This document shows, piece by piece, positions 18,848 through 22,335 of a DNA stretch of 64,000 nt. Below the pieces are notes generated by a model that saw only the letters and a program-made list of their open reading frames with translations, searched no databases and was not told where the DNA came from. The DNA is from Propionibacteriaceae bacterium (GTDB lineage Bacteria; Actinomycetota; Actinomycetes; Propionibacteriales; Propionibacteriaceae), in contig JAOPXN010000070.1 in assembly GCA_025965155.1 (NCBI GenBank), positions 62,001 to 126,000 of the forward strand, read 5' to 3'. Positions within the stretch are counted from its first letter, which is position 1, and each line of letters begins with the position of its first letter. The position numbers were made by a program, and so were the translations under genes.

Positions 18848-18878
18848 TTGACGGACTGTCAGTGGGGCGGTGTAGATT
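18848..18878 (+). promoter_or_regulatory. promoter of the SOS operon
   Basis: TTGACG (18848-18853) and TAGATT (18873-18878) with a 19-nt spacer, longer than ideal. The predicted transcription start (about 18884-18887) falls at the left edge of the LexA palindrome, so bound LexA would block initiation. Confidence 0.55.
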
Positions 18879-18887
18879 AGTCAGTGT

Positions 18888-18903
18888 TCGAACAGCTGTT
18901 CGA
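18888..18903 (+). promoter_or_regulatory. LexA operator (SOS box)
   Basis: TCGAACAGCTGTTCGA is a perfect 16-bp palindrome of the form TCGAAC-N4-GTTCGA, the actinobacterial LexA consensus (itself close to the Bacillus GAAC-N4-GTTC box). It lies 9 nt after the -10 hexamer. The downstream operon ends in dinB, a classical damage-response gene, which supports the call. Confidence 0.88.
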
Positions 18904-18904
18904 T

Positions 18905-19043
18905 ATCGGCGCTTGGGGAAGAGCCGATCTTGTCGATCAGCTCTCGGATGCCGGCGCTGTGTTCGCGGCACGCGCCTCGGGCACGCTCGCGGTGCGGATG
19001 GAACTCGACCCCCATCCGCACCCGAGCTGCCGTTCGGGTCGAG
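18905..19043 (+). other. structured leader of the DUF6504-dinB operon
   Basis: Sequence between the SOS box and the first gene. (a) ATCGGC 18905-18910 can pair with GCCGAT 18923-18928, with an inner CTT/AAG. (b) AGAGC 18920-18924 can pair with GCTCT 18940-18944 around an inner GATC/GATC; (a) and (b) exclude each other. (c) An 11-bp stem, 18991-19001 with 19012-19022, has a loop whose CTCGACCC (19004-19011) is complementary to GGGTCGAG (19036-19043), the layout of an H-type pseudoknot. Found by eye; no folding energy calculated. A GTG at 18884 also opens a reading frame through here. Confidence 0.4.
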
Positions 19044-19077
19044 CCCAACTCCGACACAACGACCGAGGGAAAACCAC

Positions 19078-19329
19078 ATGCCCGTCCATGACGAACCAAT
19101 CGAAGTCCAGTACGAGCCCAGCTCAGATCTCGAAGCTCCCGCCCGCTTCCTGTGGCGTGACCGGCTGTGGGTGGTTCGGGACATCCTGGCGCGACGGGTG
19201 CAGGCCGACGTCGGAGTCTGGCAGGTGGTCGCGGCCAACGGGGCCGCGGGACCACAGGGCATCTACGAGCTGGCCGAGCCGGCAAACGGTGGACCGTGGC
19301 GGTTGAGCTCCACAGGGCTCGAACGGTGA
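19078..19329 (+). CDS. DUF6504 family protein
   Basis: 83 residues, all DUF6504-like: PARFLWRDRLWVVRDILARR in the middle, then WQVVAANG and GIYELAEPANGGPWRL at the end. The function is not established; small proteins of this family are found beside Y-family polymerase genes in actinobacteria (from memory), which fits this operon. Soluble, no catalytic motif. ATG 19078 has GAGGGA 7 nt upstream. First gene of the SOS-boxed operon; its stop overlaps the next start (GTGA). Confidence 0.82.
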   Translation: MPVHDEPIEVQYEPSSDLEAPARFLWRDRLWVVRDILARRVQADVGVWQVVAANGAAGPQGIYELAEPANGGPWRLSSTGLER

Positions 19330-19775
19330 CCGCCGTGGTTGAGCCGCCTACCGTCGAGTCGACTGTGCACAAAGACCTCGGCCGGATCCGCTCCGCCCTG
19401 CTCGAAGCCGAGCTCGCCGGGCGGCCGGCGGACCGCTATCTCGCGGCCTATCTGGCCGCACTCCGGACCGCGGCACTGGTGCTGGCGATCCGGGCCCGGC
19501 CCGCCCAGACGGCGGGACGGCCGAGGAACGCCTGGCAGGTGCTGGCCGAGGTGGCGCCGGAGCTCGGCGAGTGGGCAGGCTTCTTTGCCTCGATCGAGGG
19601 TAAGCGGGAGGCGGTCAGGGCCGGTGCCACCACGATCGTGTCTGCCCGGCAGGCCGACGACCTGGTACGGGACGCGGAGGCGTTTCTGGCCGTGGTGGAA
19701 CGCGCGATCGGGCGCCGCAGTGCCGGTGCTGCGGACCGAACCTGGGCAGCGGGAGCGGGCGTGAACCGATCATGA
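19326..19775 (+). CDS. SAV_6107-type HEPN domain protein
   Basis: 149 residues, almost entirely alpha-helical, matching the SAV_6107 HEPN pattern: KDLGRIRSALLEAELAGRP, AAYLAALRTAALVLAIRARP, then AWQVLAEVAPELGEWAGFF. Many HEPN proteins are RNases with an R-x4-6-H motif; no such motif is visible here (the only histidine is near the N-terminus), so catalysis is doubtful and a binding or adaptor role is more likely. The GTG start at 19326 overlaps the DUF6504 stop and its stop overlaps the methyltransferase ATG. Same LexA-controlled transcript as dinB. Confidence 0.8.
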   Translation: MTAVVEPPTVESTVHKDLGRIRSALLEAELAGRPADRYLAAYLAALRTAALVLAIRARPAQTAGRPRNAWQVLAEVAPELGEWAGFFASIEGKREAVRAGATTIVSARQADDLVRDAEAFLAVVERAIGRRSAGAADRTWAAGAGVNRS

Positions 19776-20596
19776 CGCGAGCGGCCCAGGTCCAGGCACT
19801 AGGCTTCGATGCAGCACGGCTGCTGCCGCAGCAGCCGATCAGGATCCAGCCCGAGGAGGAGTGGATGTCCGAGCCGCGTCGGCGACGTTCGGTCTCCCAG
19901 GCTCACCTGCTCAACCTGCTCTCCGGACAGCTCGGCGAGCACGACTTCCCAACCGCGGCGGACGTGGTGGATATCGGCGGCGGGACCGGGGGAGTCGCCA
20001 CCTCGTTGGCCGCTCTCGGCCACCAGGTCACCGTGATCGACCCCAGCCCGGACGCACTGGCGTCGCTGGAGCGGCGAACCGCCGAGGCGGGCCTGGCCGG
20101 CCACATCCACGCGGTCCAGGGCGACGCGAACGACCTGCTCGACATCGTCGGGCCCGCGGGCGCCGATGTGGTCATCTGCCACCGGGTGCTCGAGGTGGTG
20201 GACTCGCCGAGTGAGGCGCTGTCCGCAATGGCCGCGGTGCTGCGTCCCGGCGGTGTGCTCAGCTTGCTGGTGTCCCAGCGGCACTCGCTGGTGCTGTCCC
20301 AGGCCTTGAACGGACACATCGCGCTGGCCCGCCGTACGTTCGCCGACCCGGAGCGGTTTGAGCACGACCAGGTTATCGACCTGGTCCGCGACGCTGGTTT
20401 CGACGTCGTTGCCAGCCACGGGATCGGGGCAGTGTCCGACCACGTACCGGAGGCCCTGGTCGAGTCCGAGGCGGGCGCGTACGCGGAGCTGTACCAACTG
20501 GAGTCGGAGATCAGCCAGGATCCCACCTTCCGGGCCCTCGCACCCCTGGTGCACGTCTTCGCGCGTTCCGGCCAGAAGAGTCCAGCGACCGGCTGA
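19772..20596 (+). CDS. class I SAM-dependent methyltransferase
   Basis: 274 residues. SAM-binding motif I VVDIGGGTGGVATSLAALG, the acidic motif II VTVIDPSPDAL, DADV-like motif GADVVICHRVLEVV (motif IV) and VLRPGGVLSLLVS (motif VI). The substrate is unknown; the fold is that of small-molecule or tRNA-modifying enzymes such as SmtA/CmoM. A 60-residue N-terminal extension precedes the fold. Its ATG overlaps the HEPN stop (ATGA) and 11 nt separate it from dinB, so it belongs to the SOS-regulated unit, an unusual companion for a polymerase. Confidence 0.85.
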   Translation: MTRAAQVQALGFDAARLLPQQPIRIQPEEEWMSEPRRRRSVSQAHLLNLLSGQLGEHDFPTAADVVDIGGGTGGVATSLAALGHQVTVIDPSPDALASLERRTAEAGLAGHIHAVQGDANDLLDIVGPAGADVVICHRVLEVVDSPSEALSAMAAVLRPGGVLSLLVSQRHSLVLSQALNGHIALARRTFADPERFEHDQVIDLVRDAGFDVVASHGIGAVSDHVPEALVESEAGAYAELYQLESEISQDPTFRALAPLVHVFARSGQKSPATG

Positions 20597-20607
20597 GCAG
20601 GCGTGAC

Positions 20608-21789
20608 GTGAGCATCATCATGCACGTCGACATGGACGCCTTCTACGCCTCGGTCGAGCTGAGGTCACGCCCTGAGCTGCGGGGCACTCCGGTCATTGTC
20701 GGCGGCAGCCATCGTGGCGTGGTGCTGTCGGCGACCTATGAGGCTCGGGCGGCCGGAGTCCGGTCTGGGATGCCGTCGAGTCGCGCGCGCCGGCTCTGTC
20801 CCGCCGCGACCTTCATATCGCCGAACTTCGACGAGTACACCGAGGTGTCGCGGGCGATCGTGTCGGTCTTCGAGTCGGTCACCGCGGTGGTCGAGTCCGC
20901 CTCTATCGACGAGGCGTACCTGGACGTCACCGGATCGCTGCGCCGGCTGGGGTCGCCGGCGTCCATCGCGGAGTACATCCGAGCCGTGGTAGCCGACGAG
21001 CAGCAGATCACCTGCTCCGTCGGCATCGGGCCGACCAAGTTCATCGCGAAGGTGGCTTCGCGGGCCGCCAAGCCGGACGGGGTGTGCGAGGTGCCTCCGG
21101 ACCGGGTCGTCGCATTCCTGCATCCGCTGCCGGTGGAGTCCATGTGGGGGATCGGGCAGTCGACCGCCGACAAGCTGCACCGGATGGGTCTGTTTAGGGT
21201 GGGTGACCTCGCAGCGACGCCGCGGGACACGTTGCAGCATGCCTTCGGACCTCATGCCGGCATCATGTTGGCCGAGCTCGCCTGGGGCCGGGACGCCCGT
21301 CGGGTGACACCGTCGGAACGGGAGCGAAGCGTCGGCTCCCAGGAGACCTTCGGGGCGGATACCGACGATCCCGAGGTGGTGAAGCGGGAGCTGCTGAGGA
21401 TGGCGGCCCGAACGGCCAGCCGGCTGCGCAAGGCACGGATGCTCGGTCGCACCGTCGCCATTTCCATCCGGTTTGCCAACTTCGCCACGGTGACCCGATC
21501 GGCCACCATGTCCAGCCCAACCGACGTTACCGATGAGATCTACGGCCAGGCTGTGGCTCTGTACGACCGGCTCGGGGCCTCGCGGACTCGGGTTCGGAGG
21601 GTCGGCGTCCGGGTGGAGAACCTGGTCCCGGCCGAGCGCGCCTACCGCCAGCCCGAGCTGACGGCGCCGGAGCGCGGATGGCGTGAGGCGGAGCAGGCCA
21701 TCGACCTGGCTGTCGGCAGGTTTGGCCCTGCGGCGGTGCAACGCGCCGCTCTCACCCGACACCGTGACGGCCGGCGCGATGTCGGGTAA
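20608..21789 (+). CDS. dinB: DNA polymerase IV (Y family)
   Basis: 393 residues. The N-terminal palm motif MHVDMDAFYASVEL carries the first catalytic Asp pair; ASIDEAYLDVTG has the second Asp-Glu; CSVGIGPTKFIAKVAS and SMWGIGQSTADKL (helix-hairpin-helix) follow; the little-finger domain runs from about 245, starting at the RSVGSQETFG segment. It performs error-prone translesion synthesis. No clear C-terminal beta-clamp peptide (QLxLF) is visible, as in some actinobacterial DinB paralogues. GTG 20608 begins directly at the family N-terminus. Last gene of the operon. Confidence 0.95.
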   Translation: MSIIMHVDMDAFYASVELRSRPELRGTPVIVGGSHRGVVLSATYEARAAGVRSGMPSSRARRLCPAATFISPNFDEYTEVSRAIVSVFESVTAVVESASIDEAYLDVTGSLRRLGSPASIAEYIRAVVADEQQITCSVGIGPTKFIAKVASRAAKPDGVCEVPPDRVVAFLHPLPVESMWGIGQSTADKLHRMGLFRVGDLAATPRDTLQHAFGPHAGIMLAELAWGRDARRVTPSERERSVGSQETFGADTDDPEVVKRELLRMAARTASRLRKARMLGRTVAISIRFANFATVTRSATMSSPTDVTDEIYGQAVALYDRLGASRTRVRRVGVRVENLVPAERAYRQPELTAPERGWREAEQAIDLAVGRFGPAAVQRAALTRHRDGRRDVG

Positions 21790-21936: not shown

Positions 21937-22335
21937 GTGGCCCTCTCAGAAGAAGAGCAGCGGCTTCTCGACCAGATGGAGGCTGCTCTAGCGGCCGAGG
22001 ACCCGAAGTTGGTGAATGCTCTTCGGGGAACCGGCATGCGGCGAGTTCATCGACGACGAGCCGCGCTCGCAGGTGTCGGGTTCTTTGCTGGCCTGGCACT
22101 GCTGGTCGTCGGGATGTCTACCGAACTGTTCTTGAGTGTGCTCGGTTTCGTCTTGATGGTGACCGCCGCGGTGACCGCGATCTACTCCTGGCAGCACGTC
22201 GGCGCCGGTCCGGACAACGGTCGCAATGCTGACCGCCCCAAGGCGCCCCAACCTTCCGGTAGCGACGACAACCAAGGCTTCATGGACAAGATGGAGGAGC
22301 GCTGGCGTCGTCGTCGCGACGAGTCCGGCTTCTAA
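21937..22335 (+). CDS. DUF3040 membrane protein
   Basis: 132 residues. Starts with MALSEEEQRLLDQMEAALAA, the signature of DUF3040, then a basic stretch (RRVHRRRA), two adjacent membrane helices (about 43-61 and 65-83), and a charged C-terminal tail ending in an RWRRRRDESGF segment. The function is unknown; homologues lie close to the dcw cluster in many actinobacteria. GTG 21937 has a GGGAGGTGG Shine-Dalgarno. It is followed by a strong intrinsic terminator and appears monocistronic. Confidence 0.88.
   Translation: MALSEEEQRLLDQMEAALAAEDPKLVNALRGTGMRRVHRRRAALAGVGFFAGLALLVVGMSTELFLSVLGFVLMVTAAVTAIYSWQHVGAGPDNGRNADRPKAPQPSGSDDNQGFMDKMEERWRRRRDESGF

Follow-up and report, generated by a model that had tools for sequence, protein, structure and literature searches.

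A probable LexA-repressed translesion-synthesis operon with HEPN_SAV_6107 and CmoM-like members in a Propionibacteriaceae bacterium

Four genes at positions 18848 to 21789 of a 64,000-nucleotide (nt) stretch from a Propionibacteriaceae bacterium (assembly GCA_025965155.1, contig JAOPXN010000070.1, positions 62,001 to 126,000; the whole stretch is referred to here as the window) encode a DUF6504 protein, a HEPN_SAV_6107 protein, a methyltransferase (MT) related to CmoM, and DNA polymerase IV (DinB). We consider it likely that they form a LexA-repressed translesion-synthesis (TLS) operon, a dnaE2-less form of the actinobacterial DnaE2/ImuB-C mutasome cassette. At the level of sequence, this reading is supported by the LexA operator, the operon packing, the intact DinB residues, the homology between DUF6504 and ImuB-C, and the conserved company of the genes. 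The broader topic is how the replication fork passes to error-prone polymerases, which actinobacteria, among them antibiotic producers and industrial strains, need for induced mutation.

Operon layout and predicted LexA control

The features of the operon, in window coordinates, are as follows.

18848..18878, plus strand: possible promoter, TTGACG (18848-18853) and TAGATT (18873-18878) with a 19-nt spacer; read by sequence, weak
18888..18903, no strand assigned: LexA (SOS) box TCGAACAGCTGTTCGA, a perfect 16-nt palindrome; motif match
19078..19329, plus strand: DUF6504/standalone ImuB-C-like protein, 83 amino acids (aa), without the WW pair; PF20114, 7.2e-7
19326..19775, plus strand: HEPN_SAV_6107 protein, 149 aa, HEPN fold without the RNase motif; PF18726, 1.2e-31
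19772..20596, plus strand: CmoM-like S-adenosylmethionine (SAM) methyltransferase, 274 aa; Methyltransf_11, 3e-18; nearest solved relatives CmoM 8joz/4htf
20608..21789, plus strand: dinB, DNA polymerase IV, 393 aa, acidic active-site residues kept; IMS, 4.8e-53
21649..21660, plus strand: QPEL, at the position of the DinB family's QLxL clamp-binding-like motif; alignment of 78 DinB, clamp binding predicted
21676..21753, plus strand: putative RecA-N-terminus (RecA-NT)-like tail of DinB, GWREAEQAIDLAVGRFGPAAVQRAAL; scored against a profile of 30 actinobacterial RecA N-termini

An earlier note on this DNA, made from the letters alone, had described a perfect TCGAAC-N4-GTTCGA palindrome followed by four genes that are joined by GTGA and ATGA overlaps and an 11-nt gap and end in dinB, and the coordinates and Pfam matches agree with that description (overlaps at 19326-19329 and 19772-19775, gap at 20597-20607). 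The box lies 174 nt before the DUF6504 gene and starts 10 nt after TAGATT. A strict consensus scan returned no promoter, so the TTGACG/TAGATT pair with its 19-nt spacer is only a plausible one.

The box is the sole perfect LexA-motif match in the window; with up to 2 mismatches allowed, the window has 8 against 2.26 expected. The 4.49-Mb source genome has 11 perfect sites, and a reversed control pattern has none. These sites head the DUF6504 operon, lexA (identified by TIGR00498), imuA'-imuB, a gene for a 124-aa protein, and seven copies of a repeated open reading frame (ORF). Because it heads lexA and imuA'-imuB, and because the reversed pattern is absent, we take TCGAAC-N4-GTTCGA to be the LexA box of this organism, as the note had supposed. 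Predicted LexA control of the four-gene operon is well supported by sequence.

The polymerase itself appears intact. Window DinB scores above the cut-offs of both NF003015 and NF002677 and keeps D7, D100, and E101, which are conserved across the 78-DinB alignment and which we take to have catalytic roles. Compared with the profile of RecA N-termini, its tail scored 17.6 in the expected register, a value exceeded by 1 of 100 shuffled-column controls, and a hidden Markov model search did not find RecA; the resemblance is suggestive only.

A conserved actinobacterial SOS cassette

The class sample comprised 216 genomes, of which 154 have HEPN_SAV_6107; HEPN loci were annotated in 140 of these, the window included. 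The first 80 regions were picked after the neighbor tables had been seen, and with the 60 later ones the list is complete except for 14 of the 154 HEPN genomes. Genes were counted as neighbors when they lay nearby on the same strand as HEPN. Across the 216 genomes, DUF6504 was found in 98 (E ≤ 0.01), a relative of the methyltransferase in 129 (E ≤ 1e-10), a relative of the window's DinB in 209 (E ≤ 1e-20), and ImuB in 88 (E ≤ 1e-40).

Neighbors at the 140 loci were DinB (77), the methyltransferase (71), DnaE2 (57), DUF6504 (52), ImuA (13), and ImuB (13). The commonest multigene order was DUF6504-HEPN-DnaE2-MT-DinB (22 loci), and we also found HEPN-MT-DinB (19), DUF6504-HEPN-DnaE2-DinB (16), HEPN-MT (16), and HEPN alone (32). 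The order in the window, DUF6504-HEPN-MT-DinB, occurs at 4 loci including the window itself. ImuA and/or ImuB lie inside the HEPN cassette at 14 loci, none of which has DUF6504. Among named loci (the best 80 of 293), the same orders recur in Nocardioides, Frankiaceae, Geodermatophilaceae, Micromonosporaceae, Streptomycetaceae, and others. In one family, f85, the methyltransferase and dinB genes are adjacent in 18 of the 18 genomes examined. The earlier note had named lack of conservation of these neighbors with dinB as a result that would refute its reading; the counts for dinB and the methyltransferase do not refute it. The note's view that HEPN and methyltransferase proteins are not standard partners of DinB was, for actinobacteria, mistaken. 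Judged by gene order, the four genes are no odd private set; they represent a regular SOS cassette of actinobacteria, here in trimmed form. The CmoM-like methyltransferase as a partner of dinB, judged from these neighborhoods, is new.

At 139 HEPN loci, the 450 nt preceding the first cassette gene were surveyed for LexA boxes. We found a perfect box at 98 and a box with one mismatch at 19, so that 117 of the 139 have 0 or 1 mismatch; the note had proposed to look for such upstream SOS boxes in actinobacterial genomes. With the window excluded, 57 of 72 genera and 30 of 35 families have a perfect box at at least one locus. Of the 33 HEPN loci without downstream partners, 18 had a perfect box, 13 a box with one mismatch, and 2 a box with two; L237, which belongs to the 33 and has a perfect box, has imuB-imuA-dnaE2 upstream. 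Boxes were diverged at HEPN-MT loci, which are mostly Streptomyces-like (perfect at 3 of 18), and two of these three (L107 and L108) have imuB and dnaE2 upstream. As controls, 2.9% of random 490-nt windows contained a perfect box, true sites included; a box with 0 or 1 mismatch preceded the adjacent DUF3040 gene in 0 of 99 cases; upstream of a CrtI-like gene, 2 of 68 were perfect; and upstream of a transglutaminase gene, 1 of 69 had a one-mismatch box. Reexamination of loci with poor boxes located a perfect box 491 to 590 nt before the HEPN domain at L057, L061, L268, L275, and the named locus L188, and one 1,481 nt before it at L060; at the named locus L164, no perfect box was present within its 597 nt of upstream sequence. 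The counts of 98 and 19 were kept as they were, without the boxes from reexamined loci. Both members of the window's genus, the window and L061, have a perfect box, in L061 590 nt before the HEPN domain. Beside the f85 methyltransferase-DinB pair, a perfect box was found in 0 of 18 genomes; one-mismatch boxes were not searched, and the pair may still be under LexA control, as HEPN boxes in f85 are mostly one-mismatch.

In most of the genera sampled, HEPN_SAV_6107 follows a LexA box whether or not it has partners nearby, which points to an unexamined SOS factor. On this basis we count HEPN_SAV_6107 among the core SOS genes of actinobacteria, which is new. In Corynebacterium glutamicum, cg2381 is a LexA-regulon gene without an assigned function that is induced by ciprofloxacin (M 3.86), as given in PMC5055667. 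Our search control showed that C. glutamicum has the HEPN_SAV_6107 family; cg2381 is three tags from mraZ (cg2378), and in family f5 three loci (L054-L056) have HEPN 0.6 kb ahead of DUF3040, with mraW following at a distance of about 2 kb from HEPN. From this synteny, cg2381 is the probable HEPN_SAV_6107 orthologue. We also detected weak PF18726 matches (21.9 to 32.6 bits) in distant genomes from other classes of the phylum (L029-L040).

DUF6504, dnaE2, and the imuAB mutasome

The Pfam family PF20114 matches residues 443-519 of the 524 in Azospirillum ImuB at 25.5 bits, above its cut-off of 24.2, and residues 427-500 of the 503 in Rhizobium ImuB at 17.6 bits, below it. From the match to the ImuB C terminus, we identify DUF6504 as the ImuB-C domain. 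A predicted model of the DUF6504 protein of locus L161 (not that of the window) has six strands (mean predicted local distance difference test [pLDDT] score, 86.9), and Foldseek gave no matches to it at E ≤ 0.001. Standalone ImuB-C has been proposed as a damaged-DNA sensor (PMC3765255) and as the part that binds DnaE2 (PMC6511836, PMC12926913). In four f85 genomes (G326:C61, G355:C1, G393:C179, and G467:C4), a standalone short DUF6504 has a perfect box 12 to 27 nt 5' of the match; these box-linked copies are, as read from sequence, another SOS context for ImuB-C.

The window cassette has no dnaE2 between HEPN and the methyltransferase, and the source genome has a complete imuA'-imuB-dnaE2 elsewhere with its own LexA box. 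In the class sample, imuB occurs in 2 of 45 genomes with cassette dnaE2 and no ImuA/B in the cassette and in 20 of 23 genomes with HEPN-MT-DinB and no cassette dnaE2 (Fisher test, 4e-12, relatedness ignored). Independent pairs point the same way, imuB being opposite to dnaE2 in 2.6 of 3 on average and never in the same direction. Cassette dnaE2 and a second imuAB-type mutasome thus seem to avoid each other. A tested cassette DnaE2 scored 662 bits, compared with 1,431 for the imuAB-linked DnaE2 of the source genome and a cut-off of 939, and the cassette enzyme is presumably DnaE2B. The two genomes on the other side of the comparison, G446 and G406 (L062 and L073), have a dnaE2 cassette without ImuA/B as well as imuB-dnaE2 elsewhere; if their cassette enzymes are DnaE2B, they contradict the published rule by which ImuA/B is absent from DnaE2B genomes.

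The WW pair of DUF6504 is present in 44 of 44 dnaE2 cassettes of the class sample (4 contig-end loci, all with WW, were set aside) and in 34 of 34 named loci with dnaE2 (5 set aside). It is missing from DUF6504 in all four class-sample dnaE2-less cassettes that retain the gene, the window included, which is a new observation. In the same-genus relative L061, a weaker DUF6504-like ORF, read by eye, also lacks WW. We infer that the WW pair may contact DnaE2; the avoidance, together with the accompanying WW pair, would then offer concrete residues for DnaE2 binding. Our reading is that dnaE2 was lost from the window cassette, its genome being served by imuA'-imuB-dnaE2, with the direction of change unproved.

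Parts of this system belong to known types. Descriptions of standalone ImuB-C with DinB and LexA go back to 2013 (PMC3765255), and modules of ImuB-C, DnaE2B, and active PolY have been predicted (PMC12926913). The DnaE2B-[ImuB-C]-PolY-RecA module of PMC12926913, with an example from Tessaracoccus, is like the window cassette actinobacterial, with a standalone ImuB-C and an active PolY; its PolY has a RecA-NT-like tail, as window DinB may also have. The window cassette differs in that it lacks dnaE2 and adds HEPN and the methyltransferase. Operons of ImuB-C with DinB/PolY and no DnaE2 (PMC3765255; Geobacter lexA-imuB-C-polY, PMC6511836) have the same protein pair in an SOS context, but the examples come from other phyla. 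The words HEPN and methyltransferase each occur 0 times in the main texts of PMC12926913, PMC3765255, and PMC6511836. The ImuA'-ImuB-DnaE2 mutasome shares the ImuB-C domain and LexA control with the window operon, which lacks ImuA, the inactive Y-polymerase, and DnaE2. In Streptomyces venezuelae, dnaE2-dinP are likewise LexA-controlled TLS genes of an actinomycete (PMC9380542), but the main text of that paper uses the terms DUF6504, HEPN, and methyltransferase 0 times. We found no report of HEPN_SAV_6107 or the methyltransferase as cassette members in the main texts of the open-access literature searched. The earlier note's suggestion of an uncharacterised mutasome therefore holds in part: the polymerase and ImuB-C portions belong to known modules, and HEPN_SAV_6107 and the methyltransferase as cassette members are new.

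Accessory proteins and alternative explanations

The window HEPN protein scores 109.6 bits against a PF18726 cut-off of 27.2, and its AlphaFold model (pLDDT, 88.7) is a HEPN helical bundle. The nearest folds are 2hsb, the sacsin HEPN, and 1ufb, and the AMPylated HEPN toxins 7ae6 and 8xdj are also among the matches; a sequence search among solved structures gave two rows (E 0.5 and 0.69), neither of them a HEPN. The R-x4-6-H RNase motif is absent, as the note had observed, and is impossible in this protein because its sole histidine is H15. R94 is invariant in 56 HEPN sequences, and no histidine follows it in the window. An R-x4-H pattern is frequent among 80 family sequences (R, 97%; H, 88%; R37/Y42 in the window); we discounted it as an RNase motif since it sits in the second helix of the model and RNase motifs of the HepT type sit late in the chain. 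The window has Tyr at the His position. A Q-x-x-[LIMV] tail is found in 85 of 140 HEPN sequences (shuffled mean 38.6, maximum 54), but it is only a lead, because relatedness inflates the count and the window lacks the motif.

The nearest NCBIfam and solved-structure relatives of the methyltransferase are CmoM (8joz/4htf; 134.9 bits), collinear over 246 profile positions. The CmoM equivalog model gives 94 bits against a cut-off of 366; the R26 position is Ser in the window, the Arg being absent from both members of the genus, and the W124 position is Val in the family consensus. CmoM function is unsupported on these grounds, and the protein is, by sequence, a homologue of CmoM and not CmoM itself.

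We propose that DNA damage would lead to LexA cleavage and to the four proteins being made together; the note had supposed that DinB's three companions are made only then. The clamp motif and RecA-NT-like tail of DinB could keep it at the stalled fork; HEPN, which is no classical RNase, may serve the polymerase complex as a small helical accessory subunit or act as its brake; and the CmoM-like enzyme might methylate RNA or a partner, on a carboxylate or a similar group. Error-prone synthesis by a C-family polymerase would fall to the separate imuA'-imuB-dnaE2 operon, which could explain why the cassette has no dnaE2 and its ImuB-C protein no WW. More speculatively, and doubtful as it stands, HEPN_SAV_6107 could be a noncatalytic "polymerase manager," a counterpart of UmuD or ImuA that docks on the clamp or RecA and chooses among DinB, DnaE2, and ImuB complexes, with the DinB-linked CmoM-like enzyme switching the complex by methylation.

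Several observations weigh against the reading as a dnaE2-less TLS cassette. At the 32 loci with HEPN alone (2 with <4 kb of contig downstream), no partner lies nearby on the same strand, and 17 genomes of family f93 have DUF6504 without HEPN (dinB within 5 kb in 15 of them; in the 10 with a listed position, DUF6504 has a DnaE2 match next to it), so that the DUF6504 module can do without HEPN. The neighborhood is syntenic, with DUF3040 within 9.5 kb at 93 of 139 HEPN loci, which makes adjacency by itself weak proof. The source genome's own ImuB has no PF20114 match, and hhalign scored standalone DUF6504 against actinobacterial ImuB-C no better than controls. Both the DUF6504 (weak match, no WW) and the methyltransferase (Ser at the R26 position) of the window look diverged or degraded, and L166, the sole named dnaE2-less cassette with DUF6504, retains WW. 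Of 14 genomes with ImuA/B in the cassette, 4 escaped the imuB search; the table was therefore repeated with dnaE2 above the NF004225 cut-off, which detects 14 of 14 and again gave 2 of 45 and 20 of 23. A DinB tree built from 68 loci shows six changes of the dnaE2 state, three of which are forced by supported branches; the raw tests ignore relatedness, and a sign test on the independent pairs is nonsignificant (p 0.25) because the pairs are so few.

Some of these points would suit a relic, in which dnaE2 is gone, only DinB matters, and chromosomal synteny keeps DUF6504, HEPN, and the methyltransferase in place as passengers while they decay. The weak 83-aa DUF6504, its still weaker counterpart in L061, the missing R26-equivalent Arg in both genus members, and the conserved synteny fit such decay. 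Yet every frame is open with the 4-nt overlaps intact, HEPN far exceeds its cut-off, the LexA box is perfect in both genus members, and 31 of 33 HEPN loci without downstream partners keep a box with 0 or 1 mismatch; we think a relic unlikely. It is still more improbable that the operon links damage to translation, with the methyltransferase as a CmoM-like modifier of the tRNA wobble uridine and HEPN as a noncatalytic RNA binder. The collinear CmoM relatives, and RNA binding as proposed for motif-less HEPN domains in a HEPN survey (PMC3710099), speak for this idea, but the CmoM score and the R26 and W124 positions do not, and the genes keep company with dinB and dnaE2. There is very little probability that HEPN is an RNase toxin induced in the SOS response and paired with a modifying antitoxin: the HEPN fold and its matches to AMPylated toxins recall such systems, but we rejected the candidate because R-x4-6-H is lacking, the table of the same survey gives "No" for an RNase motif in SAV_6107 (PMC3710099), and a nucleotidyltransferase is absent among the four genes.

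On the 3' side of the cassette, a DUF3040 gene (SCO2097-like morphological protein, 21937-22335) is followed by transglutaminase/DUF58/MoxR and mra/fts genes. Elsewhere in the source genome, the perfect box at L003:1501-1516 heads the 124-aa protein (MTTPGYLPPGWPERV...), which has no Pfam matches. Seven of the 11 perfect boxes (L001, L005, L006, L008, L009, L010, and L011, on contigs C3, C37, C57, C89, C107, C108, and C115) lie directly 5' of repeated ORFs that are nearly identical (MDSVGGSSGGVDATPVDHALDQL...); several sit at contig ends, and one ORF is truncated by such an end. An 83-aa piece of the repeated ORF had no Pfam matches; the ORFs presumably resemble HNH repeats of the DUF222/13E12 type.

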